This document shows positions 30,713 through 49,052 of a stretch of 64,000 nucleotides of DNA, piece by piece (position 1 is the first letter of the stretch; every line of letters begins with the position of its first letter). Source of the DNA: Burkholderiales bacterium (GTDB taxonomy: Bacteria > Pseudomonadota > Gammaproteobacteria > Burkholderiales > Burkholderiaceae); contig JAMFSK010000114.1 of assembly GCA_026225235.1 (NCBI GenBank), positions 248,001 through 312,000 on the forward strand, written 5' to 3'. The translations under genes and the position numbers were made by a program. The notes under the pieces are model-generated. The model did no database searches. It was not told the DNA's origin and saw only the letters and a program-made list of their open reading frames with translations.

Positions 30713-30715
30713 GTC

Positions 30716-31021
30716 TCAACTCCGTTCTGCTTGTGCGGCCGTGCCGTCCTGGCGGGGCTCGGTGCCGCGTTGACTCTGCACCAGCTCGGCGAGCGTCGCG
30801 ATCGAACGAAAATGTTCGTGGGTGCGTCCGTCATCGGCGAGCAGCGTGAGCTGATATTTCTTGCGCAGCAAAATGCCGATCTCGAGCGCATCGATCGAAT
30901 CCAGGCCGACACCGTCAGTGGAGAAAAGCGGCGCATCGTCAGGGATATCGTCCGGCGTCATGCCGTCGAGATCGAGCGCTTCGATCAGAAGCTGCTTAAT
31001 TTCAAGTCTTAAGGAATCCAT
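30716..31021 (-). CDS. Acyl carrier protein (ApeE-like)
   Basis: 101-residue acyl carrier protein with Ser42 in STDGVGLDSIDALEIG. The C-terminal tail (SQRGTEPRQDGTAAQAERS) is longer than in the second ACP and probably disordered. Start ATG at 31021 lies 20 nt inside the acyltransferase gene; an upstream in-frame Met at 31054 would add 11 unlikely residues. Confidence 0.9.
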   Translation of the reverse strand: MDSLRLEIKQLLIEALDLDGMTPDDIPDDAPLFSTDGVGLDSIDALEIGILLRKKYQLTLLADDGRTHEHFRSIATLAELVQSQRGTEPRQDGTAAQAERS

Positions 31022-32592: not shown

Positions 32593-32651
32593 GCGCCCGT
32601 TGCCCTGAAGAGCAAGGTGTGTCGTGGAGCGACCCACCTTACCCCGAATAG

Positions 32652-32709
32652 ATATAACCAAACTAAGTTAGCGGCAGTAAAAAGCAAATATTGAGGAAAT
32701 TAACCTCAA
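32652..32709 (-). promoter_or_regulatory. Candidate promoter and operator of the polyene operon
   Basis: On the minus strand a TTATAT -10-like element (32652-32657) lies 18 bases from a weak TTTACT -35 (32676-32681). Directly upstream is a perfect 6+6 inverted repeat TTGAGG-N7-CCTCAA (32691-32709). The region 32640-32780 is clearly AT-richer than its surroundings. Together these fit a regulated promoter for the operon starting at 32592, and the remainder of 32593-32892 contains no gene. Confidence 0.45.
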
Positions 32710-32967: not shown

Positions 32968-34344
32968 TCAACCTTTCTGCAACATGTACGTTTCGTATTC
33001 CAGCCCGGCGAACTTGCGGTCTAGCAAATAGACCGACGCCAGGACGGTGAGCAACAGTGCGCCCGCAAAGCCATAACCATAAGTACCCGGTCCATAATGC
33101 AGCGTCAATGCGGTCAACACCCCATTGAGCAACACGAACACGAAGGTCAGGTTCAACACGGTACGCCGCTGGTCGAGGTAGAAGAACACGTTGAGCGCGC
33201 CGAGAAACAAGACCTGCAAGCTCGCCGCGATCACGTCAATGCGCAGCAGCGGCGCGTACAGCGTCGAGATGCCGAGTTTTTCGAGCAGCCAGTCACCAAA
33301 CGCAAAAATCAGCAGAATCACGATCGCCTGGATCTTGAGAATCTCGAACAGCCCTGCGCGCACCGTGCGGACCATCATGTCGCGCGATTCCTGAATATGC
33401 GAGAGCGTGGCGCCGCTGCGAACCGCGTCGTAAAACTCGTCGTAGAACTCGACGAAATCGGCTTCGATACGCACGAGAAATACGGCCATCCCCGGCATCA
33501 CGCACAGATAGGAAATAAACACCGGAATATCGTAAATCGCCGAGGCGCGCAGCGGTCCGATCACCTGCTGACCGGTGCCCGGGCCGAACCAGAACATGAA
33601 CTTGTCGAGCCAGACCCCGAGGTTGTAGAGAAAGCCGACAAAAATCAGACTCGGGTAGGCAAAGCGCCGGTTGATAACTTCGAACGACACAAAGCGGTCG
33701 CTGGGGTAGTTGCGGTAGATCAGGCCCGACAGACCCAGCAGCAGCACGAAATGGCCAATCACGAAACCAAGCAGGAGGCCTTCGAGGCCATGCCGGTTGA
33801 GCAAGAGCGCGGCCCCCACCGTAACGGTGTAACCGACAAAGAAGGTGCCGAGAATGTGCTTGTACTCCTTGACGCTCGACAGCACGATTGCGGCGACCCA
33901 GATATTGCTGAGGATCACGAAGCCCGTCAGCATCAGTGCGCGATAGCCGAGCGGCAGGTTGGCAAAATACGTGAACGCAAGGGCGATGCCTATCAGGCCA
34001 GCGGCAAGCGTTGTCATCAACACAATCGCGTTGAAGTTCGGCAAGACCAGGTCGATGCGCTTCTCGAACAGGCGGTCTGACATGAAGCGCGTAAAGGCCA
34101 GTTGCACAAATCCCGTGAGAATCAGGCTCGAGGCAATCAGGTAAGTCACCGAGACCTGGAACTGCGTGATCAGAAAGTCCGGAATGACCTTGCCGAGACT
34201 CAGCAAACCGATCAACAGCATGCCGATGATCGAGAGGATCAGCGGACCGGAGCTGATGACGCCCGCGTAGATGTAGGCTTTGGCGACACCCGTCAGGCTG
34301 TCGCGCCGCATCATCTTGCGTAGTTCAAAACCGATGCCAGCCAT
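32968..34344 (-). CDS. pelG: Pel polysaccharide export membrane protein PelG
   Basis: 458-residue polytopic inner-membrane protein (about twelve helices) of the flippase-like PelG family, part of the Pel synthase/transport complex with PelD, PelE and PelF. Typical start MAGIGFELRKMMRRDSLTG and helices throughout; family motifs include YIYAGVISSGPLILSI. Its ATG directly abuts the pelF stop. Last gene of the operon, followed by a terminator. Complete length. Confidence 0.93.
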   Translation of the reverse strand: MAGIGFELRKMMRRDSLTGVAKAYIYAGVISSGPLILSIIGMLLIGLLSLGKVIPDFLITQFQVSVTYLIASSLILTGFVQLAFTRFMSDRLFEKRIDLVLPNFNAIVLMTTLAAGLIGIALAFTYFANLPLGYRALMLTGFVILSNIWVAAIVLSSVKEYKHILGTFFVGYTVTVGAALLLNRHGLEGLLLGFVIGHFVLLLGLSGLIYRNYPSDRFVSFEVINRRFAYPSLIFVGFLYNLGVWLDKFMFWFGPGTGQQVIGPLRASAIYDIPVFISYLCVMPGMAVFLVRIEADFVEFYDEFYDAVRSGATLSHIQESRDMMVRTVRAGLFEILKIQAIVILLIFAFGDWLLEKLGISTLYAPLLRIDVIAASLQVLFLGALNVFFYLDQRRTVLNLTFVFVLLNGVLTALTLHYGPGTYGYGFAGALLLTVLASVYLLDRKFAGLEYETYMLQKG

Positions 34345-36036
34345 TTACGTCCCCTGCTTGCTGATCGATGAGGCGGGCGCACCCGTCGGCGCGGCGTTCG
34401 GCACCGTAGCGGCGGGTGCGGCATGCGCGGCCGCAGCGGCCGCCGCTGGGCGCTTGCCCGAGTGATCGACCGGACAACCGCCGGTCGGCTTGTCGCCTCC
34501 GGGCGCCGCATCAGGCATCTGCGCGAGCCGGTCGTAGATGCTGCGATAGGCGCCGATCATGGTTTCCTGCGCGTAATACGTTTCGACTCGCGCAATCGCC
34601 GCACGCTGCGCGGACTGCCACTTGGCTTCGTCGTGCAGCAGGCTACTGAGTGCGGCCGCCAGCGCGGTGGGGTTGGCAATCGGCACGATCTCGCCGGCCT
34701 TGCCCAGTGCGCGGTCGGCTTCGCCCAGGCCTTCGACGAGCTGACGGCACGACCCGACATCCGTGGAGACTACCGGCACGCCCGCGGCATACGCTTCGAG
34801 CACCACGAGCGGCAAGCCCTCGCTGATCGACGACAGCGTCACGATGCCGACCTTCGGCAAGACATCGTCGACACGCTGGAAGCCGAGAAACTTCACATTG
34901 CGCGACAAGTCGAGCGACTGGACCAGGCTGCGGCATTCCTGCGCATAAGCCGGATCTTCCGTTTCCGGTCCTGCGATCCAGCCCTCGACATTCGGAAACT
35001 CGCGGCTGACCGTGAAGATCGCGCGAATAAACGTCTTCACGTCCTTGATCGAGACTACACGACCGATCAGGGCAATGACCGGCGGCACGCCAGGTGCCCG
35101 TCGCGCCCGCAGCGCCGCGAAGCGCGCGATGTCGATCCCGTTAGGCACATTGCGGGTCCGGGCCGCCGGCGCGCCGTCGGCGATCTGGCGCAGCCGGTTA
35201 CCTTCGAACAGCGACACCATCTCGCTGCCGGCCGAATAACACACGCGTCCGATCGCTTCGAAAAAGCGCACCCAAAGCTCGCGGAAATAGCTGACCTCGG
35301 AGATGTCCTTCTCGAAGATGCCGCGGTTGTCACGGATCCAGTTGCTCTGCAACAGGTCGATCTTGCGTTCTTTCGTATAGATTCCGTGCTCGGAGACAAG
35401 CAGCGGACGCCGCGTCTTGTAGTGGAGCAGAGCACCGAGAAAACCTGCGTAACCCGTCGACACCGTGTGATAGACCTTCGCCGGCGGCAACTTGTCGGCG
35501 ATACGCGCCAGTTGCCACAGCGGCTTGTGCATGATCCGCACGGTCCAGAAGTAATCGGTGAACGAGGGATCCGTACAGCGTTCGTTGTACTGTTCGGTGA
35601 TGTATTCCCACGCCGTCCTGCTGTACAAAAACTGGTCTTCGCCAAGCTTGCCACCCGGCTGGATCATCGGAAACACATCCGCCATCAGATGACCGATCTC
35701 GTCACGCTGGGTCGCCGAGCGCAGCGACGCATGCAGCGCAGCCGAGCGTGCAAAGGCCTCGGGGTCGCCCAGCGCCGGTTCGGCCAGCGGCGGCGGATCG
35801 AAACGATAGAGATAGTGCGTCTCGAGGTGCACGACATTGGCCGGCAGCTCATAGAGCTGGCCGTCGTAGTCCTCTTCGCGGCTGCCGATAAAGACAATCG
35901 CAAAGGTCTTCTCGGGAAACGCGCGGATCATCTGGTCGACCCAGCTCGAAACGCCTCCGCGCACATAGGGAAAGGTGCCTTCGAGCAACAAGGCAATGTC
36001 CGCCGAAGCGGCGCGACGTGTCGTCTGTGAGTTCAT
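34345..36036 (-). CDS. pelF: Pel polysaccharide glycosyltransferase PelF
   Basis: Cytosolic GT4 glycosyltransferase that polymerises the Pel chain from UDP-GalNAc. 563 residues. N-terminal family motif LLLEGTFPYVRGGVSSWV, then IVFIGSREEDYDGQ, VYHTVSTGYAGFLGAL, and the C-terminal donor-site blocks VALIGRVVSIKDVKTFI, LPLVVLEAYAAGVPVVSTDVG. The ATG at 36036 overlaps the pelE stop (ATGA). The last about 45 residues (from TGGCPVDHSGKRP) form an Ala/Pro-rich low-complexity tail beyond the usual GT4 end. Confidence 0.94.
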   Translation of the reverse strand: MNSQTTRRAASADIALLLEGTFPYVRGGVSSWVDQMIRAFPEKTFAIVFIGSREEDYDGQLYELPANVVHLETHYLYRFDPPPLAEPALGDPEAFARSAALHASLRSATQRDEIGHLMADVFPMIQPGGKLGEDQFLYSRTAWEYITEQYNERCTDPSFTDYFWTVRIMHKPLWQLARIADKLPPAKVYHTVSTGYAGFLGALLHYKTRRPLLVSEHGIYTKERKIDLLQSNWIRDNRGIFEKDISEVSYFRELWVRFFEAIGRVCYSAGSEMVSLFEGNRLRQIADGAPAARTRNVPNGIDIARFAALRARRAPGVPPVIALIGRVVSIKDVKTFIRAIFTVSREFPNVEGWIAGPETEDPAYAQECRSLVQSLDLSRNVKFLGFQRVDDVLPKVGIVTLSSISEGLPLVVLEAYAAGVPVVSTDVGSCRQLVEGLGEADRALGKAGEIVPIANPTALAAALSSLLHDEAKWQSAQRAAIARVETYYAQETMIGAYRSIYDRLAQMPDAAPGGDKPTGGCPVDHSGKRPAAAAAAAHAAPAATVPNAAPTGAPASSISKQGT

Positions 36037-37091
36037 GTCGACCAGTATCGTACGACCGAGCGGAGCATCGGCAACGACGCTCCTTCGCCCAGTGAGGAGA
36101 GCGCGTTCACGACGCCCCGGTAGTCGCCGCGCAGATACGCGCTTTCGGCGATCCACGGCAGCAGCCGGTCACCCGGAAAACCGCGCGACAGGGCCTTCTC
36201 GAAGTATTCGTCGGCGCGCGCGACATCGTTGAGCAACAGCGACAGACGACCGCGCGTGACCCACAGGGCCGCGTTCGAATCGTCGATCTCCAGCGCACGC
36301 TGCGCGTATTTCTCGACCTGCTGCGCCGCGAAGCGCTGCATTTCTCCCTGCACGAGATTCTGATAAATCAACTCCCAGTAGAGCTCGGCGAGCATGCGGC
36401 AGGTTTCTTCGATATCGCCCGGCTCAATGTCTTCATTGAGCTTGCCGAGCAAGTCGTAGATGCGCTGGGTAATTTTCTTTTCCGCGCTGTCGAGCATCCC
36501 GTAGGCGAGCAGGCGGACGTCCTCGACCGGATCGCCGAGCAAGTCGCGCAACACGCCACCCGTGGCTCGGGTCGGCATCGACTGAATTGCAACCAGCGCT
36601 GTTACGCGGTCGTCCAGCGCAATCGCCGGGTTCGCGAGCTTGGCCTGCAGCCGCGCGCCGCTGCCGTGCGCAATCCGTGAGACGAGATACACCGCAAATC
36701 GGGGCAGCGTCACCGACCCCACGCCACCCACGTCTGCCTGACGCGGCCAGACGATGCCCCAGACAATCCCGCTTGCACAGACCAGGCTGCCGATCACCGG
36801 CACGAACATGCAAAAGGCGAACAGCAGCAGCCATGTCGCGAAAGCCGGCCGCCGGTAGCGCGGCGGCAAGACGAGACGCACGGCCGTAGCGATCAGGAGC
36901 GCGGCGATGAACTGCATCGCGATCACGGGCAGCAGCGGATCGATGGCGCTGAGCGCCTGCCAGTTCGGATGGACCAACTGCACCAGTGCGAGCACCTGAA
37001 ACAGAATGCCGAGCACGGTCGCGACCACGAGCAGGAGCAGCAACAGGATCGGGGTGCCGACGGCAGTGAGGGGAGCGGACGTCGTGTTCAT
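36033..37091 (-). CDS. pelE: Pel membrane/TPR protein PelE
   Basis: 352 residues. Two to three N-terminal membrane helices (ILLLLLLVVATVLGILF; IAMQFIAALLIATAVRL; WLLLFAFCMFVPVIGSLV) followed by a cytosolic alpha-helical TPR-like part (ELYWELIYQNLVQGEM; EIDDSNAALWVTRGRLSLLL). This layout is that of PelE, which links PelD and PelF in the inner-membrane complex. Start ATG at 37091 lies 4 nt after the pelD stop. Confidence 0.9.
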   Translation of the reverse strand: MNTTSAPLTAVGTPILLLLLLVVATVLGILFQVLALVQLVHPNWQALSAIDPLLPVIAMQFIAALLIATAVRLVLPPRYRRPAFATWLLLFAFCMFVPVIGSLVCASGIVWGIVWPRQADVGGVGSVTLPRFAVYLVSRIAHGSGARLQAKLANPAIALDDRVTALVAIQSMPTRATGGVLRDLLGDPVEDVRLLAYGMLDSAEKKITQRIYDLLGKLNEDIEPGDIEETCRMLAELYWELIYQNLVQGEMQRFAAQQVEKYAQRALEIDDSNAALWVTRGRLSLLLNDVARADEYFEKALSRGFPGDRLLPWIAESAYLRGDYRGVVNALSSLGEGASLPMLRSVVRYWST

Positions 37092-37095
37092 GGCG

Positions 37096-38496
37096 TCAGG
37101 CTTCGAAACCGCATCGTTGCAACAAACGCTTGAGCGCCAGACCATTTGCCCGTGGCGCAACGTGCAGCGTATGCACGCCGATGCGTGCCGCCTCGAGGCT
37201 CAGCCCGAACTGCGCGTGCAGGCTTTCCTCGATCCGCGCTAGATACCCATCGACCCCTGCCCCGTCCGTCGCCGGCATCAGGTTCAGGAAAATCGAATGA
37301 TCGGGCGTCTGCAACGACCAGGTCAAATCGAGCGAACGGCGCCGGCGGTTGATGTGTTCGAGTAGCGAGTCGCCCTCGTCGTCGCGCGGAAACACGAGCG
37401 CCACCAGCGACGATTCGATACTCGCATCGCGCTGCAGGCGTTCGAGCCGGCCGAGGTCGACGGCGAACTCATACGGCACGGTCGGCACTTCGGCAACGAT
37501 CGCATGGGCAACCGCCGCGTGCTCGACGCCATCCGCGTAGTAGCCCAGCAGCACCAGCAGAAACTGCAGGTTGTCGTGGTTCAGCGACAGGAACGGCATG
37601 CGCTTGATCACGAGCACGCCGAGCAGATCGCCTTCGCTCGTCGAAAGCGGCGCGCAGGCGACATATTGCGTATTGCCCTCGCGCGCTTCGTCGACATTGG
37701 TCAAGTGGGCGAGCGAGCGCGTCGTGATGCAGTGACGCACGAGCGGATCGGCCGGATCCACCGCGAACGCTTCGCCGACGTGCGCGATAGCGGCACTGTC
37801 GGTGGTGTGACTGTGATCGCCGGGCAAATTGCCCTTGCGCGCCGGCACGATCGCCGCCACTTCAAGCTGGCAGACCTGTGCGGCAAATTCGAGAAAGTCC
37901 GTCGCGTTGGGCAGGCCACCGCGCTTGACTTCGGCAGCGGCCGTCGCCGTCGTCTGGCGCAGACGCGTGATCGAGTCGCGCAGCGTCGCCGGGCGCGTAA
38001 GCAAGTCTTTCTCGAGACGCTCATGCGACAGGTGCAACAGATAGTGGCTGTTGGTCAGCGAGACCAGCCGGTCGTTCAGGTATTCGTTGAGCGCGCGTGC
38101 CCGTGCAGAGCGCATGCCCCACGTGTCGCCGAAATGACCCGCGAGCAGCGTCTGGATCGCACCGCCCACGAAGAACACGACCGGAAAGACGTCGCTCGAC
38201 GGCCGACCATACAAGCCGTACCAGGCCGCCACCAGGGTGAGCACGGCGACCATGCCGAGCAGCGTGCCGTAACGCAGCGCGAGCACCAGCGGGAACAACC
38301 AGATCCACGGAAACGGGCCCGACATCCACAAGGGATCGCGCCCACCGAGCAGCGCGGCGGCGACGATCACCACGGCCATCACCACCAGCACCTCGATCAC
38401 GGCGATCGGGCGGGTGGTGACCGGCGTCAGCCAGCGCCGATAGCGGCCCGGCTCGGCGAAGGTCCCGCGGCGCGTATCCTGCGCAACGTTAGACAC
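37096..38496 (-). CDS. pelD: c-di-GMP receptor PelD
   Basis: 466 residues. Four N-terminal membrane helices (AVIEVLVVMAVVIVAAALLGG onward), then a GAF domain and a degenerate GGDEF domain. A c-di-GMP inhibitory-site-type RxxD (RSLD in NRRRRSLDLTWSL) lies in the GGDEF part, as in Pseudomonas PelD, where binding switches Pel synthesis on post-translationally. GGDEF catalytic residues themselves are absent. The start chosen is the GTG at 38496, with AAGGA 7 nt upstream; an alternative Met at 38529 would overlap pelC. Confidence 0.92.
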   Translation of the reverse strand: MSNVAQDTRRGTFAEPGRYRRWLTPVTTRPIAVIEVLVVMAVVIVAAALLGGRDPLWMSGPFPWIWLFPLVLALRYGTLLGMVAVLTLVAAWYGLYGRPSSDVFPVVFFVGGAIQTLLAGHFGDTWGMRSARARALNEYLNDRLVSLTNSHYLLHLSHERLEKDLLTRPATLRDSITRLRQTTATAAAEVKRGGLPNATDFLEFAAQVCQLEVAAIVPARKGNLPGDHSHTTDSAAIAHVGEAFAVDPADPLVRHCITTRSLAHLTNVDEAREGNTQYVACAPLSTSEGDLLGVLVIKRMPFLSLNHDNLQFLLVLLGYYADGVEHAAVAHAIVAEVPTVPYEFAVDLGRLERLQRDASIESSLVALVFPRDDEGDSLLEHINRRRRSLDLTWSLQTPDHSIFLNLMPATDGAGVDGYLARIEESLHAQFGLSLEAARIGVHTLHVAPRANGLALKRLLQRCGFEA

Positions 38497-38509
38497 GGCG
38501 TCTTCCTTA

Positions 38510-39079
38510 CTATTGAGTAACGGGCGCAATCAGCGCCGAGATCAACTTCTGGCCGACCGACGACAACGACGAACGGCTCCAGCCCGTCCGGTTGCCCGTC
38601 GCGCTCCAGATAATCGCGCCGCTCTGCACGTCGATCACCTGCAGGGTCACGCCAGCGGCCGGTTCACCGTCGACGCCAACCTTGTAGCGCCATTCTTCGA
38701 CCGCACCCGTCACCGCGTACTTGACGTTTTCCTTGCGTGCCCATTCAAGCGCACGATCGGTCGCGCCGCGTTCGGACGGATCGACCAGCGTCTCACGGTT
38801 AAGGTTGGCCGGATAACGCTTGACGTTCGAGAAGCCCGAGCTCGTCAGCAAACTCTGTGTGATCGCTTCCACGGCCAGGCCTGCCTGCGGTGTTTCCGTA
38901 TAGTTGACGACCGGGAGGACCGCCCACGAGTCGTCGCGCGAGACCTTCGGCGCGCTGCTCGAGTCGATCGACGCGCAACCGCTCAGTGCGGCGAAAACCG
39001 CCGCTCCGGCGATCCACGTAGCCAGACCGCGCACCCAGTTGGCGCGCCCGGCGCCGGCAAAACGCTTGAACCCTTGCAT
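38510..39079 (-). CDS. pelC: Pel outer-membrane lipoprotein PelC
   Basis: 189-residue lipoprotein with a lipobox (AVFAALSGC) that leaves a lipidated Cys at about residue 35, then a periplasmic domain (DSWAVLPVVNYTETPQAGLAVEAI; TGAVEEWRYKVGVDGEPAAGVTLQVIDVQSG). PelC assembles a ring on the periplasmic side of the PelB channel and funnels the polymer. Start ATG 39079 with GGGG upstream. Complete. Confidence 0.9.
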   Translation of the reverse strand: MQGFKRFAGAGRANWVRGLATWIAGAAVFAALSGCASIDSSSAPKVSRDDSWAVLPVVNYTETPQAGLAVEAITQSLLTSSGFSNVKRYPANLNRETLVDPSERGATDRALEWARKENVKYAVTGAVEEWRYKVGVDGEPAAGVTLQVIDVQSGAIIWSATGNRTGWSRSSLSSVGQKLISALIAPVTQ

Positions 39080-39143
39080 GATGTAATCCCCTGATTCCTG
39101 ACAAAACTTTTGTTGAACGACTGTGCCTCGGCGCGCTGGCCGC

Positions 39144-42100
39144 TCAGAACAGCCACCGATAACGTGCGCCAATCTCTGTCGTCGAAGTGCCCAGATGCGA
39201 GACCGCTTCGTGCTGGTAATACAGGACGGCGTGATCGTTGCCAAACACACTGCCGGCCAAGCCGACCAGGACTTGCGGACCCCAGCCGAAATTGCTGTCG
39301 TGGATCAGGCCGACGTCGAGAAACGGCCGCCACGCACGCGTATAGCGATCGAGAAGGTCCGTACCGAAGCCTGCCGCCACGCCGTACTGCGAATAACTTT
39401 GCGGAATAAAGGTACTGGCCGTCGGAATATCGCCGACCGGCACCAGGCGCTGCAGGAACGGCACGTTGATGCCGTCCGCACTGTAGTTGCCGTGCGTACC
39501 GACCAGGCGCACCGTCCAGTCCGGATATTCGATCCGGAAGCGATAGCCAATTTCACCATCCACCAGCCCGCCGCTGCCGATGCGCTCGCGCTCCTGCGTA
39601 TAGAAGCGATCGCCTTCCAGCGAACCGCGTACATAGACGCGTGGCAACACATCCCATTCGAGTTCGGCGCGCATGAAGTCTTTGACGCCGCCGACCTGGA
39701 TTTCCTGCGACTCGTCGGCGAGCTGGTTACGTCCCGTCTGGAACGTAAAGCGCAAGGTCGAGCCACGGCCGAATTCGGCCGACAAGGCCTCGGCGTAGAA
39801 CTCGGTGAGTGCGGTGCGCCGGCCGAGCGTCACGGAGATGTCTTCATCGTTGGTCTTGTAGTGGCCGATGAAGTTGTAGGTACGGTCAGTCGACGGCACG
39901 CCCGTGAGGATCAGCGCGTTGGTCGTCTCCTGGTTGAGCTGGATGCCCTCGAGGGCGACCGAGAAGTGATCGGTCAGCGCGAGTTCGGCGCCCGCTTTCC
40001 ACTCGATATAGTCGAGCGGGCTCGCCACCACGCTGCGCACGCCGGTGTAGACGGACTGGTCACGATCGGTGGCCAGGTTCGTCAGGCGTTCGTGCAAATC
40101 ATCGTTCGCCGGCGCGCCATTAAGGCCGGTAAATGCCAACGCTTCGGCTTCACCCTGGCGATCAGCCATTTCGTATCCATCAACCCGATCGGCGATCTGC
40201 GCACGACTCGCGCCCTTCGAATCGAGGATGCGATTGATCGTCTTGACGTCGTGATCGGCGAGCGCGACCGACAGCTCAGCGTCGACCGGACGGGTCAGCC
40301 GATTGGCGTACTCATGCGCGAGCCAGGCCTTGGCGAGCGGATCGGACTCCTGCGAACGCGCCCATGCGACCGCGACTTCGATTGCCGCGCTCGAGATCTG
40401 CCGTTGCTCGCGCAACTGCCCAGGCGTCATGCCGGCGGTCGTGAGCGGATCGACCGACGGTGCAAGCCCAATCTTCCCGCCCGAGACCTGCGGCGAACGG
40501 CCGGCGTTTGCGTCAGGCGCATCGGCCCCCGCCACCCCACCCGCTGCGTTCGGCGTATCGACCGGCGGCAAGCCGCCGACATTGCCCAGCACACTCGCCT
40601 GCAATTCGGTCGTGTCGGACTGTTCGCCATCGGCGCGCAGCATTTCGATCAACACGCGCTTGGACGTATCGCCGTTTTCGAACAACTGGCTCAGCGCGAC
40701 ACGGCGCTGGCGCAGTTCGTCGCGGCGCTCGACATCGTCGTTCGACAGCGAAACCGAGAGATGCCCATGACGCGGCGCGCCGGCCGGCAGCGGACCGCTG
40801 TCGGGGTCATGCGGCATCAGGGTGGTCCAGACATAACTACGCAGCGACCATGCCGTGTCGTCGTGCCCCGCGGCTTCTTCCGCATCGGCGAGGGCCAGCA
40901 CCCAGAGGGGGTCGCCCTTCGAGGAAGCCGCTTCACGGCGGAAATACGGCAGCGCGTCGTTGGGCTGATTGAGCCGCACGAGGCCGGCCGCATAGGGCCC
41001 CCACAGCGCGGCGACCTGGAGCGAACGATCGCGCCAGCGCACGATGGTGGCGCGCAGTTCGGCGTCGTCGCCAAAGTCGACCAGCGTCCACATATAGGCA
41101 GATTGCACATCGGGTGACGCACCCGGCAAGCTCGCCGCGCGGCGCAGATCGCGCAGGGCTGCATCCGGCTGATGAGTCTGGCGCTCGTATTCGGCCACCA
41201 TCGACAGCGCATCCGGCGTGTCGTCGATCACAGCCCGTTCCTTTGGCGTCAACGAAGCCAGCAGGTTCGCGACGCGCTGCCAGGCGCGTGCCTGTACGTA
41301 GTAGTAGATCGCGTCCTGCAGGGCCCTTGGCACACCGGTATTGCGGTACTGGAGTTCTGCGATACGACCCGCGTCGAGCGGATGGCCATCATAGAAATAG
41401 GCCATGTCGCCGAGATCTTCATCGGTCGCGTGACCGCCCGCCAGCAATTGCCGATAGGCCTCGTGCGCCGCTTCGTCGTTCTGAAGCAGGCGCGCAAGCT
41501 GACCGTAGGTCCGCCAGAAGTCGGCATTGGCCGGCGTCGCGCCCGGCAACGCCACCTGAAGCGCGCCAAATGCGCCTTCGTAGTCGCGGTGCGCGTAATA
41601 GAGGTTCGCGAGCTGGAGCGAGTCGTCCGTATTGGGGCCGGCAATTCGCAACAGCTCGATGTAGGTCGCTTCGGCAGCGTCGTCGTGGCCCGAGCGTTCG
41701 GCTAGTGCCGCATAGCGACGCATGACCGCGACGCGCTGCAGGCCCACTGCGCGATGCTTGAGGAAGGCCATGGCGTCATCGGGACGGCCCAGCCGTTCAT
41801 AGGCATCGACTACCGCGTCGATGCGCTTGAGGTCCCGCGGACTCTGGTCCGACTGGTGGAGCAGCGCGTCAACGTAGGCTTCGTCATCGTTGAGCGCCGG
41901 TGCGAGGCGCAGCACCTCTTGCCACGCGTCGGGGGCATTGGTCACTTTCGCGTCGGCGAGCCAGGCCTGCAAGGCCACCATCGGCTGGTTGCTCCATTCG
42001 GCGGCCTGGGCCAGACGGCGCTGCCAGACCGACGAACTCGGGTCCGCTGTGACACGACGCTGCGCAAGGCGCATGGCGCTCGGCACATCGTTGCCTTCGA

Positions 42101-43397
42101 GGAAAGCCTGGAAGGCGAGATCGTCATAGTGATCCCGATCTGCCGCACTCATCGACGCATGGATCGGCGCCGCAGCTGCCGCGCCGGACGCCACAGGGGT
42201 CGAAGCCGCCAAGGCGGAAGTGACTGGGCCCGATGCTGCCGGTGAGCCCGTCGATGAACCCGAGGGCAAGGTCGCGCTCACTCGCATGATGCGCACCGCG
42301 CCCATGTCTCGCGCCTGATGGCCGCGCATCGGGCCATCGGCGAATTGCCAGCCGCCCAAGTCGCTCGCATGCGCAATCGCCGGGTGCCACATCGTCCAGC
42401 GCGCCGCATGGCCATGGTCCGCCACCCGACGCGTGCCGCGCCGCGAGCTCGCCGCGCGCGCGTCAGCCAGGCGATCGCGGTCGTCCATCTGGCTTGGATC
42501 GAGGGCACTCGTAAGGTCTGACAGCACCTTCGCGTAGTGCCGGATCATGTCCGGACGGTTCGCCGAGCGCGCGACATTGAGCATCGCCTCGATGGTGCGG
42601 GGATCGTTACTGAGGCGACCGAGATGCTTCTCGCCTTCCGTCAGCGCCTGGTCGAGCAGACCACCCGCCTCAAAAGCCGCCAGTGCCGACATGAAGTACC
42701 GGCGCTGCTGGTCGAGGTCACCGACACTCGATTGCGCCGAAAAATACGCCTGTGCCGCGCGGTCATACGCCTGCGAGCCGAGTGCAAGCTGCGCGATGCG
42801 CATTTGCGTGTCGACGCCGCTGGTGTGATCGGCGGTCGCGAGTTCCTGATAGAACACGATGGCGGCCTGCGACGCACCGGCTGCCGTCGCGCGTTCAGCC
42901 AGGGTGCGCAATTCAGGCGCCTGCCACTTGTAGCGGGCCGCATCGTCGAACTGACTGCGCAGCCGGTTCATGGCTGCCGGGCGGTCCGGGTTGTCCTGCG
43001 TCATGCCGTAGGCAAGCGCTTCGCCGACACCGGTCTTGACCAGCACCGCCGAGCGCTGTTCGTCTTCGTCGCTCGACTGGGCCATCCGGTCAGCCAGATG
43101 TTCGGCGTCCGCAAAGCGGCCCACGCGCAGGTACTGCGCGGCCAGCACACCGATGAAATCACGGTCGTCTGGGGCCACCCGCAACCATGCCTCGAGGTAG
43201 GCGACCGACAGCGCATTCGGCTTGTCGCTCTCGAGCAGGCGCCGCTGCAAGGTATTGCGCGGGTAAGCGGCCGCGAGCACGCCGACCACCGCGAGCGCGA
43301 GCAGGATCAACAGCCAGGGCTGCAGGATCCGGGCGCGTTCGCGCGTGACGACGCGCGTGCCCTCTGGCGCGGAGCCCTGGCTTGCGTCAGGAGCCAC
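39144..43397 (-). CDS. pelB: Pel outer-membrane secretin-like porin PelB with TPR domain
   Basis: 1417 residues, start GTG at 43397 (GAGG 6 nt upstream, overlapping the pelA stop by 11 nt). One N-terminal helix (PWLLILLALAVVGVLAAAYP) anchors a long periplasmic TPR superhelix that binds PelA, and the C-terminal about 300 residues form a 16-stranded beta-barrel (VYVRGSLEGDRFYT; GAGFGTDLL-type strands, ending GARYRWLF with a terminal aromatic). The protein is about 220 residues longer than Pseudomonas PelB: a Ser/Ala/Gly-rich insert lies around nt 42150-42270 and a Gly/Ala/Pro-rich one around 40440-40620 (both between TPR blocks), which looks like repeat expansion. Central region 42290-42480 is unusually rich in Arg/His/Trp. 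Confidence 0.92.
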   Translation of the reverse strand: MAPDASQGSAPEGTRVVTRERARILQPWLLILLALAVVGVLAAAYPRNTLQRRLLESDKPNALSVAYLEAWLRVAPDDRDFIGVLAAQYLRVGRFADAEHLADRMAQSSDEDEQRSAVLVKTGVGEALAYGMTQDNPDRPAAMNRLRSQFDDAARYKWQAPELRTLAERATAAGASQAAIVFYQELATADHTSGVDTQMRIAQLALGSQAYDRAAQAYFSAQSSVGDLDQQRRYFMSALAAFEAGGLLDQALTEGEKHLGRLSNDPRTIEAMLNVARSANRPDMIRHYAKVLSDLTSALDPSQMDDRDRLADARAASSRRGTRRVADHGHAARWTMWHPAIAHASDLGGWQFADGPMRGHQARDMGAVRIMRVSATLPSGSSTGSPAASGPVTSALAASTPVASGAAAAAPIHASMSAADRDHYDDLAFQAFLEGNDVPSAMRLAQRRVTADPSSSVWQRRLAQAAEWSNQPMVALQAWLADAKVTNAPDAWQEVLRLAPALNDDEAYVDALLHQSDQSPRDLKRIDAVVDAYERLGRPDDAMAFLKHRAVGLQRVAVMRRYAALAERSGHDDAAEATYIELLRIAGPNTDDSLQLANLYYAHRDYEGAFGALQVALPGATPANADFWRTYGQLARLLQNDEAAHEAYRQLLAGGHATDEDLGDMAYFYDGHPLDAGRIAELQYRNTGVPRALQDAIYYYVQARAWQRVANLLASLTPKERAVIDDTPDALSMVAEYERQTHQPDAALRDLRRAASLPGASPDVQSAYMWTLVDFGDDAELRATIVRWRDRSLQVAALWGPYAAGLVRLNQPNDALPYFRREAASSKGDPLWVLALADAEEAAGHDDTAWSLRSYVWTTLMPHDPDSGPLPAGAPRHGHLSVSLSNDDVERRDELRQRRVALSQLFENGDTSKRVLIEMLRADGEQSDTTELQASVLGNVGGLPPVDTPNAAGGVAGADAPDANAGRSPQVSGGKIGLAPSVDPLTTAGMTPGQLREQRQISSAAIEVAVAWARSQESDPLAKAWLAHEYANRLTRPVDAELSVALADHDVKTINRILDSKGASRAQIADRVDGYEMADRQGEAEALAFTGLNGAPANDDLHERLTNLATDRDQSVYTGVRSVVASPLDYIEWKAGAELALTDHFSVALEGIQLNQETTNALILTGVPSTDRTYNFIGHYKTNDEDISVTLGRRTALTEFYAEALSAEFGRGSTLRFTFQTGRNQLADESQEIQVGGVKDFMRAELEWDVLPRVYVRGSLEGDRFYTQERERIGSGGLVDGEIGYRFRIEYPDWTVRLVGTHGNYSADGINVPFLQRLVPVGDIPTASTFIPQSYSQYGVAAGFGTDLLDRYTRAWRPFLDVGLIHDSNFGWGPQVLVGLAGSVFGNDHAVLYYQHEAVSHLGTSTTEIGARYRWLF

Positions 43398-46278
43398 AGT
43401 TGACCTCGACTTGGTGATATTGAATGTCCTGTCCGCCCGAGGCCGACAGATCGAGATGCAGGTCGTCTGGGCCCCGCCGCGCGACCGCCTTGCCGTCGAG
43501 ACTGACGCGGCAGGCGCCGGCGTTCGCGAGATCAAGCGAAGGCTGGTAATAGCCACCCGCTTCGAAGGTCAGCGAGCGCGGGCCGCGCACCATCTTGCGG
43601 ACGTAGGCACTCGCGGTCTTCACATAAGGTTGCGCACCGGCACTCGGCGCCAGCGAGAAACGCGCGCTCGAGTCCGCCATGTGGATATACGTGCCGTCCG
43701 GCGCCGGGGTGAAGCCGGCGACGTTGTTGGCTGTGCCCAGGTCAGGCGTGACAGCCGTGGGATAACGCAACTCGCGCAATGCCCCGTTGCCCCGCACCAG
43801 CCAGCCATCGCCATCGCGTGCGACTGCAAAGTCTTCCCAGTCGAGCACTTTGCGCGTGTATTCCGAGGTGTAGATGGGGAACACCGACTGCTTGAGCACG
43901 CTCTGGTAGATCTGTTCGAGCGCACGCAAGGAGGCGATCTTGGTGCCGCTATACATATGGAAATAGAGGTCGATCGGCTTGAAGCGGCGCGGCTCGTCTG
44001 TCATCGCGAACGTTTCGAGTACGCGCGTGAAGCCGTAGAACGGGCCCTGCCAGTCGTCGGTATAGACGTTCTCGTCCTGGTTCGGCGCGTAGACCTGGAA
44101 CGCGTTGGATCCCTTGTCGACACCGATCGGGGCGATGTTGGTCCAGCTGTCGGCGGTCTTGGTGATCACCGTGTCGCCGCCGTTGATATTGAGCGCGCCG
44201 GCTTCGTACGTCATCCGGACAGCCACGCCCGGCGGCTCGCAATTGCCCGACCACTGGAGGATCTTGACCTTCTTCCCCGGTGGCGCGAGACGCGAATTGA
44301 TGTAGTGAATCGAGCCGCCGATTTCGCGGTCGAGACTGAAGGTGTAACCCGGAATATTCAGGGAGAACGCCGAATCGCCCCCGCCTTCGTCGACGTTGTG
44401 TTTCAGGCGCTCACCCGTGCCTTCCTGCACGTCTTCCCATTCGAACGGATGCGAATACGTATGGGTGCCGATTTCGACATTGGGCAGCGCGAACATCGCG
44501 CGGGCGATCTGTTCGAGGCGCGGCGACAGTTTCGGATAGAGACCCGTGGGTCCGACTTCGCCTTCGATGACCGACAGGGTGGTCGGCACGCGATACTTGC
44601 TGAAGAGCTGTTCGTAGAGTGCCTGCCCCGAATAGTCCGGCCCCGGAAATTCGCAGCGCGAAGCAAACCCGTCGCCGTCGACGTGGACCATGAAGAAGCG
44701 GCGGCCATTTTCCGACGTCGTGTCAGGCATCGGCATCGGCTGGAGCGCCAGCGCGCGGCGCATGAAGTCGAGCGGCTGGATCGCCCAGCGCTCCTGCCCG
44801 ATGGTGTTCAGCGAGGCGATCGTGTACGGCGACAGCGCGTAGCCGCCCCACCGAGTCAGTGCAACCGGGTCGTAGACGAAATCGCCGGCAGACAGGCGCA
44901 GCAGCGAAGTGTCGTCCTCGCCGATTTCAATGCCGTCGGCATCGCGCGCATCCGGTGCAGGCATCACTTCGAAGCCGACCATCGGGTCTTTGCTGACGAC
45001 CGACACCGGACCACGCGGCCGGCCGTCGAACACCTTGAGGCCCAGCGTTTCCGCCGCCTCAGGATTCATCTGGAAACCGAAATCGCTAAAAAACACCGCA
45101 CGCACGTTGTCGGCAATGCGGCCGAGCACCCAATGCTCCCAGACTTCGCTGCCGTCGACCGGCGTGCGTTCGAACCAGACGACAATGCCCGCATAGCGGT
45201 CAGGCGTCACATGGTCGGGAAACGGATGGCCGAGGTCGGCGTACTCGATCGTATAGCCGAGATAGTTAAGCGGCATGGCGAGATCGCGCACCCCAGCGCT
45301 CTCGTCGATCGGTTGGGTGCCGTCGCGGTCCTGAACGAGCAGGATCTTGCGCGGCATGACTTCGATGCGACCAATGCCGATGGTGTCGAAGGTCGGGTCA
45401 GTGACATAGGGAATCAAGCCAATCGGCGCACCCGCGGCGCGCACGTCCTTGGCATCGTCACGCGCGCAAACCCGATCCGTGGCCGCACAGAAGTCGATCG
45501 CTACGACGGGCACCTGGAAATCATGATGGATGCGCTGTGCGTCGGCGAGCGTCGCCGCACGCTGGGCTTCGGGCACATTGACGAAGGCCTGCCGTGCCAC
45601 GTCGAAAGTGTGGCCGACCGAACCTGTCACGTAGGCATAGAGGTGAGGATGGCTCTGGGGCAGTAAATCTGCGCCGCCGTACTGGACGATCCGCGCGTTT
45701 GAGAAATGCTGTGCGACCGTGTCGATCAACGTCGCCACATTGTGTTCGCGTGTCGCGCGCACTTCCGGGCTGGTCGAGGCGGCAAACAGCTTGTCGAGGC
45801 CGTCAAACGCAAAGCCGCGGTAGCCCTGCTGCCATAGCGGCGCAAGGGTCTGGTCGACGAAACTGCCGGAGAGGTTGGTCGTATCCGCCGCCACCCCCGA
45901 CAGGTCGACACGGGCGATCCAGGCCGTATGCGGCAGCGCATGGGCCGACGGCTGAAAATCGCTCGAAGGGCCCACGACGACAGCGTCATATGCCTGCAAC
46001 AGCGTGACTACAGTAGTGGGATTGCTATAGAAGAAAGCGATATTCGGCGACGCATCGGGCAGCGTCGCGCCAGCGGAGGCCGCCTGGATGCCGGCCGCGT
46101 CCACGAGAGGCAAGATATTGGCAATCTGGGGAACCTGAGCCTGCACAGGCAGAGCGAGCGTCAATGCCGCGGCCCACGCCCATGCTGCAGACCGGCCGCT
46201 GCACAAGCTGCGCCCGAACCCCGAAACACGTGTCGCCCTGTAAAGCCCCCGAACAAATCCAAGCGTATTGCGATGCAT
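43387..46278 (-). CDS. pelA: Pel deacetylase PelA with degenerate hydrolase domain
   Basis: 963 residues with signal peptide ending ALPVQAQ (about residue 48). Residues about 78-330: GH114-type hydrolase fold (AFFYSNPTT; GFAFDGLDKL; IDFCAATDRVCARDD), but active-site blocks are lost compared with the separate hydrolase at 46873-47742 (SVGE, NRGFE and FESLYRGW are not conserved; the general acid/nucleophile Glu position reads Gly219). Residues about 500-800: CE4-like deacetylase with the metal Asp in HVDGDG and the His pair in HTYSHPFEW. PelA deacetylates Pel in the periplasm. Start ATG at 46278 has no clear ribosome binding site; an in-frame Met at 46344 is possible. First gene of the operon. 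Confidence 0.9.
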   Translation of the reverse strand: MHRNTLGFVRGLYRATRVSGFGRSLCSGRSAAWAWAAALTLALPVQAQVPQIANILPLVDAAGIQAASAGATLPDASPNIAFFYSNPTTVVTLLQAYDAVVVGPSSDFQPSAHALPHTAWIARVDLSGVAADTTNLSGSFVDQTLAPLWQQGYRGFAFDGLDKLFAASTSPEVRATREHNVATLIDTVAQHFSNARIVQYGGADLLPQSHPHLYAYVTGSVGHTFDVARQAFVNVPEAQRAATLADAQRIHHDFQVPVVAIDFCAATDRVCARDDAKDVRAAGAPIGLIPYVTDPTFDTIGIGRIEVMPRKILLVQDRDGTQPIDESAGVRDLAMPLNYLGYTIEYADLGHPFPDHVTPDRYAGIVVWFERTPVDGSEVWEHWVLGRIADNVRAVFFSDFGFQMNPEAAETLGLKVFDGRPRGPVSVVSKDPMVGFEVMPAPDARDADGIEIGEDDTSLLRLSAGDFVYDPVALTRWGGYALSPYTIASLNTIGQERWAIQPLDFMRRALALQPMPMPDTTSENGRRFFMVHVDGDGFASRCEFPGPDYSGQALYEQLFSKYRVPTTLSVIEGEVGPTGLYPKLSPRLEQIARAMFALPNVEIGTHTYSHPFEWEDVQEGTGERLKHNVDEGGGDSAFSLNIPGYTFSLDREIGGSIHYINSRLAPPGKKVKILQWSGNCEPPGVAVRMTYEAGALNINGGDTVITKTADSWTNIAPIGVDKGSNAFQVYAPNQDENVYTDDWQGPFYGFTRVLETFAMTDEPRRFKPIDLYFHMYSGTKIASLRALEQIYQSVLKQSVFPIYTSEYTRKVLDWEDFAVARDGDGWLVRGNGALRELRYPTAVTPDLGTANNVAGFTPAPDGTYIHMADSSARFSLAPSAGAQPYVKTASAYVRKMVRGPRSLTFEAGGYYQPSLDLANAGACRVSLDGKAVARRGPDDLHLDLSASGGQDIQYHQVEVNCGS

Positions 46279-46872
46279 AAATTCGTACGACCGTTTAATT
46301 TTTGTTGCGGGCGCAAAAACATGCCGCCCGGACCCCGTCGCCACTCGCGACGTTCAAACGGCCATTCATCACCCGATATGTGAAGGCAGCCGTGCCGACG
46401 CAGTGCAGCCTGTATCGGCTGCTTCCTGGCAGGTTTGTCGAGACAAATCGGAAAAGCGGACAATGAGGCGCTCTATGGCGCTTGCCGGTTAACGAATCTT
46501 TTACCGGACTACCGCTGAAGACCGCGATTAACGCACCTTAACCAGAGGCCAAGGACGCTAAAGGGGAGCGCTTGCGACGAGCGCGCAGTGGGTGCGGTCA
46601 TACCGAGTCTTAATGGCTCAAACCCGGGAGCGATTGTGTTTTAACTTTCAGTTCAACGCAATCATTTTTTCCATATTATCGCGGCATACACGAGTTTCAG
46701 TTTCAATTTAGTGCGCTGGCGCACATATTGTTATCGACACTGACACACACGCTTGATTCCCGTGTAGGAACTGGCTCACAAGCGAGGCGCCGCGCGGGTC
46801 TTGGCCGAGCCTTTTCCAATTTCTTCTTACACGGGTTAACGGCAGACCTGTAGGAAGAATTAGTCTTTCTGA
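46279..46872. promoter_or_regulatory. Pel control region with spaced repeats
   Basis: About 590 bases without a gene between pelA and the GH114 gene, both minus strand. It holds a long-range inverted repeat CCCGTGTAGGAA (46759-46770) / TTCTTACACGGG (46824-46835), 11 of 12 bases, and a third partial copy CCTGTAGGAA (46847-46856). There is also a pair TTTCAGTTCAA (46646-46656) and TTTCAGTTTCAA (46695-46706). The stretch 46630-46730 is AT-rich and could be a binding site for H-NS-like proteins. The pelA promoter should lie here. Confidence 0.45.
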
Positions 46873-47742
46873 TTAATACGAGGTATTGCCGACTCCCATC
46901 GTCTGCAGCCCGCCATCGGCGACCCAGGGCAGCATTCCCACTGCGCGGATTCGCGCCGCTGTGTCCTCGGCACAGGCGGTATCAACCGGATCGCAGTAGT
47001 CGATTGAGATCAAAGGCAAGCGGTAGCGCTCGCGAATCGTGCTTGCCTGGCCAAGCAGCCAGTCGCGGTCAGGCTGGGAGACCTCGACATATTGCTGCAT
47101 GGTCTGATTCCAGCCGCGATACAGGGATTCAAACGCCACGGCATCGACAATGTCGTGAATCGCCGGAAGCAACTCGAATCCGCGATTGAGGATCAAGTAG
47201 GCGCCCGGAAACCGAGCGTGGATGGCGCGGATCACGGCGATGAGACCGGCTTGCTGAGCGGCGCGCGCGGCATCGGTCGTCGCGACCAGTTGATAGGAAT
47301 CCAGCGTGTCGAGGAAGAACCCGCGATAGCCCTGCCGCCAGAGCGGCGCCACCACCTTGTCGACCACGAAGGCCGGCCAGCCGGGCACCGTCTGATCGAC
47401 CACCGACGAATGCCACGCGTCGTTGGTGCCGTGCAGCCAGCCAGCGGGGAGGTCCGCGAAGTAGGCCCGCGACGGGTTGACCTCACCCACGCTCACGTAG
47501 GCGTACCAGGTGGGTTTTGACGGCGGCACGCTCGGTGCGGGCGGCACGAACCCGTGATCGGGCTCGATCACGGCGGCCTCGTAGTGCGAGAGCGCGTCGA
47601 CGGGTGGGTGTTTGCCGTAGAAGAAAGCGATCGAGCGGAGTTCAGCGGCCGGGTCGGCGCCGTCGGTGTCGGCGAGCGCGGTGCGGCCCATTGCAAACCA
47701 TGCCGAAACCACGCAGATCAGCGCACGCGCCCGTCGCCCCAT
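46873..47742 (-). CDS. Secreted GH114 endo-alpha-1,4-polygalactosaminidase-like hydrolase
   Basis: 289 residues with a signal peptide (ARALICVVSAWFAMGRTALA). Single GH114 domain matching the PelA hydrolase domain: IAFFYG, YAYVSVGEVNP (Glu87), WRQGYRGFFLDTLDSYQL (Asp145), ILNRGFELLP (Glu190), AVAFESLYRGW (Glu205) and LISIDYCDP. All the active-site motifs seen in functional PelA hydrolases are present. Likely cleaves the alpha-1,4 GalNAc Pel polymer in the periplasm or outside, taking the place of the lost activity in the local PelA. Immediately upstream of the pel control region; may be its own transcript. Substrate inferred, not shown. Confidence 0.85.
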   Translation of the reverse strand: MGRRARALICVVSAWFAMGRTALADTDGADPAAELRSIAFFYGKHPPVDALSHYEAAVIEPDHGFVPPAPSVPPSKPTWYAYVSVGEVNPSRAYFADLPAGWLHGTNDAWHSSVVDQTVPGWPAFVVDKVVAPLWRQGYRGFFLDTLDSYQLVATTDAARAAQQAGLIAVIRAIHARFPGAYLILNRGFELLPAIHDIVDAVAFESLYRGWNQTMQQYVEVSQPDRDWLLGQASTIRERYRLPLISIDYCDPVDTACAEDTAARIRAVGMLPWVADGGLQTMGVGNTSY

Positions 47743-47829
47743 GGAAAGTCGCCCCGGAAAGTGGGCGCCGGCGGCGCCTCTTGTGTTGAGCGCGCATTAT
47801 GCCGGAGCCGAACGCCCGTACTGGACACT

Positions 47830-48213
47830 TTATTCGGCGTCTTGCTCTGCGAAGACTTTCTGCGCAAGATGGAACGCCGAATTGGCGGCCGGCACGCCGC
47901 AATAGATCGCAGTCTGCATCAGGATTTCCTTGATCTCGTCGCGCGTCACGCCGTTGTTTTTTGCGGCGCGCAGATGCAGCCCCAACTCCTCGCTGCGGTT
48001 GAGCGCCACCATCATCGCGATCGTCGCCAGGCTGCGCGTGTGACGCGGCAAACCCGGACGGGTCCAGATATCGCCCCACGCATGACGCGTGATCATGTTC
48101 TGGAATTCGCTGGTGAGCTCGGTCAGGTTCGCAAGCGAGCGCTCCACGTGGGCGTCGCCCAGAACCTCACGGCGCACCTTGAGCCCGGCTTCGTAGCGTT
48201 CGTCTTCCGTCAT
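47830..48213 (-). CDS. pcaC: 4-carboxymuconolactone decarboxylase PcaC
   Basis: 127-residue carboxymuconolactone decarboxylase (AhpD-like fold) that converts 4-carboxymuconolactone to beta-ketoadipate enol-lactone. Motifs: RYEAGLKVRREVLGDAHVERS, ITRHAWGDIWTRPGLPRHTRS (with the proposed catalytic residues), EIKEILMQTAIYCGVPAANSAF. The ATG overlaps the pcaD stop by one base (TGATG). Last gene of the operon. Confidence 0.93.
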   Translation of the reverse strand: MTEDERYEAGLKVRREVLGDAHVERSLANLTELTSEFQNMITRHAWGDIWTRPGLPRHTRSLATIAMMVALNRSEELGLHLRAAKNNGVTRDEIKEILMQTAIYCGVPAANSAFHLAQKVFAEQDAE

Positions 48214-49052
48214 CACGCTTGCCCCAGGAAGTCGAGCACGGCCCCGTTGAACTCGCCGACCCGCTCAAGGTTCGAGATATGCGAGGCGTCGAGTTCGAGA
48301 TAACGGGCGCCCCGGATCGATTCCGCGAGCTCCTGGCCCTGGGCGGGCGTTGCTGCCAGGTCGTGGGTGCCCGTGATCACCAGCGCGGGGGCGAGGATGT
48401 TATGCGTCTCGCCGCGCAGGTCGGCCACTCGCAGGGCATCGCAGTTCGATGCGTAGCCTTCGCCGTGGGTATGGACGAACACGTCGCGGATCTGCGCAAA
48501 CATCAAAGGCTCGCGCTCGATGAAGTCCGCCGTGAACCAGCGTGGCAAGACGGCGCCCGCCAGCGCGGCCATCCCTTCGTTGCGCGCTCGATCGGCGCGC
48601 GGACCCCAGACTTCGTCCGACCCGATTTTTGCCGCCGTATTCGACAGCACCACGCGATTGACACGGTCCGGATAGCGTGCCGCGAGCGCCACACCGGTGA
48701 GGCCGCCCATCGATATCCCGCAGAAATGTGCGCGTTCGATATGCAGTTCGTCCAGCAAGCCGATCACGTCGCCCGTCAGTTGCTCAATCGTATAGCTGCC
48801 CGCGGGCGCTGCCGAATGACCATGGCCGCGCGTGTCATAGCGCAGCACGCGGTAGTGCGTGGCGAACGCGGCGAGCTGCGCTGTCCACATCGAGAGGTCG
48901 CTGCCCAGCGAATTAGACAACACGAGCCACGGCGCACCCGATGCGGTGGCCGCGGCGGCATCGACGACGGGGGCGCCGACCGCGTTATCGGCACCCGCGG
49001 GACCATCGACCCGGTAGTGGAGATCGACGCCCTTCACGCTCACATACGGCAT
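48213..49052 (-). CDS. pcaD: 3-oxoadipate enol-lactonase PcaD
   Basis: 279-residue alpha/beta hydrolase that opens beta-ketoadipate enol-lactone. Nucleophile Ser in FCGISMGGLTG, acidic residue in TGTHDLAATP and His in DASHISNLE complete the triad; oxyanion region SNSLGSDLSMW. Residues 25-41 contain an Ala-rich insert (DNAVGAPVVDAAAATASG) not usual in the family. Start ATG at 49052, within the operon. Confidence 0.92.
   Translation of the reverse strand: MPYVSVKGVDLHYRVDGPAGADNAVGAPVVDAAAATASGAPWLVLSNSLGSDLSMWTAQLAAFATHYRVLRYDTRGHGHSAAPAGSYTIEQLTGDVIGLLDELHIERAHFCGISMGGLTGVALAARYPDRVNRVVLSNTAAKIGSDEVWGPRADRARNEGMAALAGAVLPRWFTADFIEREPLMFAQIRDVFVHTHGEGYASNCDALRVADLRGETHNILAPALVITGTHDLAATPAQGQELAESIRGARYLELDASHISNLERVGEFNGAVLDFLGQA

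Follow-up and report, generated by a model that had tools for sequence, protein, structure and literature searches.

A degenerate PelA hydrolase domain and a separate GH166-like gene at the pel locus of a Burkholderiales bacterium

The pel locus and its two hydrolase domains

The subject of this report is the pel locus of a Burkholderiales bacterium (assembly GCA_026225235.1; 6.1 Mb in 201 contigs, 83.8% complete) as it lies in a 64,000-nucleotide stretch of contig JAMFSK010000114.1, hereafter the window. Two of its genes are of particular concern. The first, pelA (43387-46344, minus strand, 985 codons), encodes a degenerate hydrolase domain, an α/β domain, a CE21-type deacetylase and a β-rich end, and is matched by phmmer to the Pseudomonas PelA structure 9CGY (E 2.8e-142). 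The second (46873-47742, minus strand) encodes a predicted standalone hydrolase of the GH166 type, 289 residues long, with a signal-like N-terminus and an intact catalytic pair; its phmmer match is to 5TCB, the hydrolase domain of Pseudomonas aeruginosa PelA (PaPelA; E 5.3e-48). Both are open frames at the coordinates given by a first-pass annotation made from the sequence alone, and the standalone frame precedes pelA with 528 bp separating the two. That annotation had proposed that the hydrolase domain of PelA is degenerate while a separate neighbouring gene keeps the active site; the proposal is borne out by the alignments described below and by a motif survey of 115 PelA domains and 37 standalone proteins.

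The catalytic column was marked by phmmer alignment with 5TCB and with its E218A variant 5TSY, which read E and A, respectively. At this position the window PelA has Gly (TGSV) and the 289-residue protein has Glu (FESL). Numbered from the listed GTG start the former is Gly241 (codon 45622-45624, minus strand); the earlier designation, Gly219, names the same residue counted from Met23. The degenerate barrel domain of PelA (residues 98-330; 45355-46053, minus strand) retains the catalytic Asp within the block FAFDGLD, where Asp181 (45802-45804, minus strand) occupies the position of PaPelA Asp160. As had been read from the sequence, this block is all that is kept: SVGE is replaced by DLSG and NRGFE by YGGAD. 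A further difference, which the first-pass annotation had not mentioned, is that SVGE and the PLW helix are only 20 residues apart, as opposed to 47 in intact domains. The standalone protein possesses SVGE, NRGFE and the 47-residue loop, together with Asp145 (47308-47310, minus strand) and Glu205 (47128-47130, minus strand) at the positions of Asp160 and Glu218. The two motifs and the loop length are features common to the intact PelA domains found in this analysis rather than a published criterion. The importance of the catalytic pair is indicated by a 2025 structure paper, in which the equivalent residues of P. thermotolerans PelA (PtPelA), D149 and E207, are required to disrupt Pel biofilms and the alanine mutants fail to do so (PMC12022489).

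The N-terminus of the standalone protein consists of a hydrophobic stretch followed by ALA-D, which by eye is a predicted signal peptide. The first-pass annotation had called the enzyme secreted; the signal-like N-terminus is compatible with this, although the enzyme may remain in the periplasm. Two standalone copies from other genomes (L151 and L153) resemble lipoproteins, their N-termini likewise being judged by eye.

The folds of both proteins were examined as predicted models, with strand positions taken from the listed secondary structure rather than from residue-level superposition. The standalone protein is modeled as a barrel (mean predicted local distance difference test score, pLDDT, 82.0) that lies nearest to 5TCB (Z 28.9, root mean square deviation (rmsd) 2.5 over 247 residues, 37% identity), ahead of the GH191 protein TM1410 (Z 24.2), GH114 Ega3 (Z 19.3) and FsGH114 (Z 17.8). 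It also matches the Pfam GH114 model PF03537 (66.6 bits, cut-off 27); since this model reaches the hydrolase domain of PelA itself, at 19.2 bits and thus below the cut-off, a Pfam GH114 match alone does not decide the family. The earlier assignment to GH114 was rejected, GH166 being closer by both sequence and fold, and the protein is best described as a GH166-like predicted hydrolase. A third GH114-like match in the same genome lies on a different contig (contig C20, 13619-14173; L002) within a 408-residue frame.

The PelA model (mean pLDDT 83.5) resembles 9CGY over its full length (Z 45.2, rmsd 3.2, 806 residues). Its barrel (residues 98-328) matches 5TCB (Z 24.1, rmsd 2.4, 222 residues, 22% identity), is placed where the barrel of 9CGY lies, and has pLDDT values of at least 90 in its blocks except for residues 151-160 (78). 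The catalytic positions fall where strands 4 and 6 end in both models. In the PelA model none of the eight barrel strands is followed by a Glu within eight residues. A substitute catalytic Glu, one of the two observations that the first-pass annotation had named as refuting its own reading, was on this modeled structure rejected.

The deacetylase of the window PelA is, by motif alignment, complete. Within its approximate extent (43825-44712, minus strand; motifs aligned to 9CGY) H554, D556, D558, H628, H632, E758 and H796 are all kept, and D556, D558, H628, H632 and H796, with H554 and E758, match the catalytic base, metal triad and catalytic acid of PtPelA and PaPelA. All seven residues are invariant in 46/46 aligned PelAs.

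Family models and the operon map place the window PelA in a pelA-G operon, all of it on the minus strand. The identities of pelB (39144-43556; PF24604 PelB C-terminal barrel, E 5.5e-66), pelD (37096-38529; PF16963 PelD_GGDEF, E 1.3e-41), the glycosyltransferase gene pelF (34345-36156; NF038011 PelF, 813 bits, cut-off 100) and pelG (32968-34344; PF16933, E 1.2e-155) are firm. Those of pelC (38510-39250), with a weak PF13036 match below the cut-off (E 6.8e-4), and pelE (36033-37160), with weak TPR matches, rest on these and on operon position. Beyond pelG, positions 26237-32661 hold ketoacyl synthase, acyltransferase, coumarate-CoA-ligase-like and glycosyltransferase/acyltransferase genes, a set that we take to recall an aryl polyene cluster.

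Occurrence of the degenerate domain and its pairing with the standalone gene

The first-pass annotation had suggested a survey of PelA homologues in related Burkholderiales for the same loss. Three hundred genomes of the order, 249 of the family and additional fetched regions yielded 115 distinct PelA domains and 37 standalone proteins that could be scored. PelAs sharing an identical 200-residue stretch were counted once, so that 13 genomes with an orphan copy, described below, gave 12 sequences. Left out before counting were L003 (a fragment), two open reading frames (ORFs) of L206, L061 (a duplicate), the second fragment in L095, and L204 (partial, motifs intact). The L206 frames come from genome G160, in which a stop codon interrupts the PelA frame between its hydrolase and deacetylase parts.

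The loss recurs in 45 of the 115 domains (33 from one main clade and 12 orphans), the other 70 being intact. The Glu of SVGE and the Asn of NRGFE are present in all 70 intact domains and all 37 standalone proteins; among the degenerate domains the former is found in 3/45 and the latter in none. The Glu of NRGFE occurs in 67/70 intact, 34/37 standalone and 2/45 degenerate sequences. The Glu218 position is Glu in 70/70 and 37/37, respectively, and in only five of the degenerate domains, where the remaining residues are D (13), P (8), A (8), G (7), Q (2) and H (1), with one gap. The Asp160 position is likewise Asp in every intact and standalone sequence. The loop that separates SVGE and the PLW helix measures 47 residues in 70/70 intact domains and 37/37 standalone proteins, and 5-22 residues in 45/45 degenerate ones.

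The nearest relative of the window genome in the sample is Pararobbsia alpina (G329; locus L208), whose PelA is 78% identical to that of the window and which is placed in the same genus; the window thus most likely comes from a Pararobbsia. Sequencing error or chance in a single genome was rejected as the source of the degeneration, which is shared by P. alpina and the main clade; it is a clade-wide trait and is not peculiar to the window genome. Across 80 named loci, PelA is degenerate in 51 and intact in 29. Forty-three of the 51 belong to Pararobbsia, Paraburkholderia, Caballeronia, Burkholderia, Trinickia, Pandoraea, Robbsia, Chromobacterium and a few less clearly named records, and eight are second copies in Ralstonia or a close relative. 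Outside the order, a class-wide sample of 369 genomes gave 13 PelA domains for examination, none of them degenerate; the complete loops are 45-47 residues long, the Glu of SVGE is replaced by Gln in one domain (L294), and another (L297) is cut at the N-terminus.

The orphan copies (L165-L176 of Ralstonia group g152, and L164 of G449) are PelA-like proteins with a degenerate hydrolase domain in genomes that also carry a canonical PelA. No other pel genes were found near them in any of the 13 stretches looked at (14.5-19.5 kb). The neighbors of L165 include a chemoreceptor gene.

Degenerate PelA and standalone gene go together. Eighty of the 249 family genomes had a match to the PelA query, and 76 entered the count; outside it are G455, in which PelA is in fragments and the hydrolase was not matched, and three genomes considered below (G445, G495 and G536). 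A degenerate PelA lies in the pel operon of 30 genomes, all of which possess a standalone GH166 gene (30/30). The gene is found in none of the 13 genomes in which a lone degenerate PelA accompanies a canonical one, and in none of the 33 with canonical PelA only, giving 30/30 versus 0/46 other family genomes with a readable PelA. PelA places whose sequences were not retrieved, among them those of G397 and G468 and the canonical ones in G367 and G448, were classed by a hydrolase match of >300 bits in an ORF of about 1000 residues. Three of the 30 (G311, G454 and G509) also hold a canonical-type PelA, which in G311 is possibly broken. In the order-wide sample the standalone gene is present in 3/3 genomes of family f42 with a degenerate PelA. 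Forty-three of the 80 named loci entered a further count, in which a standalone match was found in 33/33 genomes with a degenerate operon PelA and in 0/10 reached through an intact PelA. This set is in part of the same species as the family sample, and its standalone matches were counted by ORF size (297-507 residues), with motifs aligned only for species also in the family sample or for L208.

In the 30 family genomes pelA to pelG lie on one stretch in 28 and are split by contig ends in two (G523 and G529). Taking these genomes with the three of f42, the standalone gene comes after pelG, with the same orientation, in 30/33; it precedes pelA in two (the window and Pararobbsia alpina) and lies on another chromosome in one (G342). 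The gap between pelG and the hydrolase match, which includes the N-terminal leader of the hydrolase, is 86-391 bp in 27 of the 30 and 1253-1500 bp in three. Since the gene follows pelG on the same strand, and mostly closely, it is probably expressed jointly with the operon in most species, which runs counter to the earlier suggestion that matrix trimming has been uncoupled from export.

Descent, selection and the proposed division of labor

On a tree of the deacetylase part (78 rows) the degenerate state requires three changes, one of them giving rise to a clade with full support whose 25 representatives include the window. A single clade of all degenerate rows was rejected on this tree by the approximately unbiased (AU) test (p 1.8e-9). 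The hydrolase-domain tree groups every degenerate domain on the same side of one branch, an arrangement that could come from long branches or domain exchange; the two trees thus disagree on how often degeneration arose. Twenty-eight of 29 standalone representatives, the exception being G274, nest with 24 intact PelA hydrolase domains of the family in a clade that is supported, from which it follows that the standalone genes derive from a Burkholderiaceae PelA. A single origin of these genes is neither rejected nor shown by AU tests from which four long rows were left out (p 0.26 with 28 rows; p 0.77 with 24 rows, without G342 and the hydrolase-only loci).

We consider it likely that the two activities of PelA have been divided: PelA deacetylates, its dead barrel is kept, and a separate exported GH166 enzyme cuts Pel. 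The losses at the PelA site, the intact standalone site, the strict pairing and the purifying selection described below are the basis of this reading. From them we infer the inactivity of PelA as a hydrolase, the activity, substrate and location of the standalone enzyme, and the role of the barrel. In this scheme the operon would make and export Pel in the usual way; PelA, through its intact CE21-type site, would deacetylate the polymer and pass it to PelB. The PelA barrel would no longer cut, its Glu having become Gly241, its motifs having been lost and its loop shortened, and would be retained as a scaffold or polymer guide. Endo-cleavage would fall to the exported enzyme encoded beside the operon and descended from a Burkholderiaceae PelA hydrolase domain. 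A Pseudomonas study indicates that the hydrolase generates secreted Pel and that its loss raises adherent biomass (PMC9894940), and for this reason the standalone enzyme is expected to control Pel release and biofilm mass. The first-pass annotation had suggested that PelA now only deacetylates and that cleavage has moved; the dismantled hydrolase site, the retained deacetylase residues, the intact hydrolase beside the operon and the pairing all support this, and the loss of activity follows from them only by inference.

The degenerate domain might alternatively be functionless and decaying, which we regard as unlikely. Its divergence does outpace that of the deacetylase part within the same PelA (the median ratio is 1.46 over 435 pairs of the main clade versus 0.79 over 585 intact pairs), and its median dN/dS is somewhat higher (0.142 versus 0.101 for the deacetylase part); in 163 intact pairs the values are 0.108 for the hydrolase domain and 0.132 for the deacetylase part. 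However, 0.142 is the median of 77 pairs, orphan copies included, with a maximum of 0.43, and such values well below 1 reject neutral decay. Of the positions conserved in at least 95% of the intact domains compared, 28 are kept in at least 80% of the 33 main-clade degenerate domains; the domain persists in all eight genera named above, and the barrel is modeled in its customary place. The degenerate domain is under purifying selection and is not decaying freely, and a structural or polymer-binding role for the dead barrel is accordingly probable on the sequence data.

Several observations weigh against the division of labor or fit it poorly. The main clade is for the most part of common descent, hence the genome counts are not independent, and the pairing may reflect one ancestral event followed by retention. 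Three genomes of genus group g7 (G445, G495 and G536; L158, L159 and L160) possess a pel cluster in which an intact standalone hydrolase stands ahead of pelB and pelC while pelDEFG run divergently, and even a profile search found no PelA deacetylase in these genomes; the simple model does not explain them, and their Pel may stay acetylated or another deacetylase may act. Similarly, in G274 of the order-wide sample the standalone gene follows pelG and no PelA was found even by profile. In that genome a GH114-type gene with a GH114-associated domain is divergent to the standalone gene (L098, 6979-8391 and 8539-9384). Outside Burkholderiales, standalone GH166-like genes occur in G937 (C1:2508130-2508921), a genome with a canonical PelA, and in G732 (C27:12297-13070), which has no PelA match at 1e-20. 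A scan of positions 46200-48300 revealed no promoter-like site (0.4 expected in shuffles), leaving the expression of the window standalone gene putative; terminator-like sites numbered three (2.0 expected). Lastly, the Asp160 position is still Asp in 39/45 degenerate domains, and both Asp and Glu persist in 2/45 and also in the named loci L213 (Paraburkholderia xenovorans LB400) and L214, so that some degenerate members may have residual activity. The PelA of Paraburkholderia phenazinium LMG 2247 (L229), which has the same arrangement, retains the Asp without the Glu.

These retained residues, together with the purifying selection on the domain, are the case for a PelA hydrolase that is still active with a rearranged site, the standalone protein then being a second hydrolase with another role, such as recycling or attack on the Pel or galactosaminogalactan of other organisms. 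We think this improbable. The window PelA has Gly at the Glu position and no other Glu near a strand end of its modeled barrel; the NRGFE Asn and the 47-residue loop are lost in 45/45 degenerate domains and the SVGE Glu in 42/45; the Glu position is occupied by varied residues with no single replacement; and, in PtPelA, loss of either catalytic residue reportedly abolishes biofilm disruption (PMC12022489). That the standalone gene is a GH114-type galactosaminidase present by chance and unrelated to Pel is very improbable: Pfam does place the protein under Glyco_hydro_114 and the window gene does lie outside pelA-G, but its nearest solved relative is a PelA hydrolase domain in sequence and fold, its homologues are nested among PelA domains, and it follows pelG in nearly all genomes with the arrangement and is strictly paired with degenerate operon PelA in the family.

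The division of labor may be extended, tentatively and with more doubt than conviction, to a two-part Pel processing system in this Burkholderiales clade, in which PelA as a pseudo-glycosidase would hold or guide the polymer at the export complex and the freed GH166 enzyme, in effect an eighth pel gene, would release Pel with a location or timing of its own. In any event, this Gram-negative clade has lost the PelA hydrolase site, and yet every genome examined with a degenerate operon PelA retains a hydrolase as a separate gene. The clade offers a natural experiment: it bears on the reason for which Pel producers maintain an enzyme that cuts Pel, and on whether that enzyme must ride on PelA and PelB. 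It also supplies small proteins of a single domain as candidate Pel hydrolases for work on biofilms.

Comparison with known Pel systems

The window PelA shares with the PelAs of P. aeruginosa and P. thermotolerans (GH166 plus CE21; 5TCB and 9CGY) its domain architecture, its deacetylase residues and its place in a pelA-G operon. It differs in that its barrel has lost the catalytic Glu, both motifs and the greater part of the loop, while the intact copy is a separate gene. The 2025 structure paper describes the hydrolase and deacetylase active-site residues as conserved in full-length homologues and suggests that both activities could be essential (PMC12022489). No report of a degenerate PelA hydrolase domain or clade was found in the open-licence literature, consulted mostly as titles and abstracts. 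The GH114 and GH191 endo-galactosaminidases Ega3 and TM1410 have the same fold as the standalone enzyme, at a lower similarity than GH166.

Separation of the two activities has other forms. In Gammaproteobacteria of other families (G893 and G738; L306 and L308) a separate hydrolase gene with the catalytic pair adjoins a deacetylase-only PelA, as in the window a separate hydrolase lies beside pelA, but no dead domain is retained. In G813 (L309 and L310) PelA is deacetylase-only and a separate hydrolase lies on other contigs; G811 (L296) has a deacetylase-only PelA of 695 residues and no GH166 match in the genome at 1e-10. The pel operon of Bacillus cereus ATCC 10987 comprises a deacetylase-only PelA_DA and a separate active hydrolase, PelA_H (BCE_5582; PMC7112168). 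There, too, deacetylation and hydrolysis reside in separate proteins and the hydrolase gene flanks the operon. By the same account its PelA is deacetylase-only and its hydrolase is divergently transcribed, whereas the window keeps the dead domain within a Gram-negative operon that includes pelB and pelC. Judged from the sequences, what distinguishes the Burkholderiales arrangement from these known split systems is that a dead hydrolase domain persists in PelA while the intact copy forms a gene of its own.

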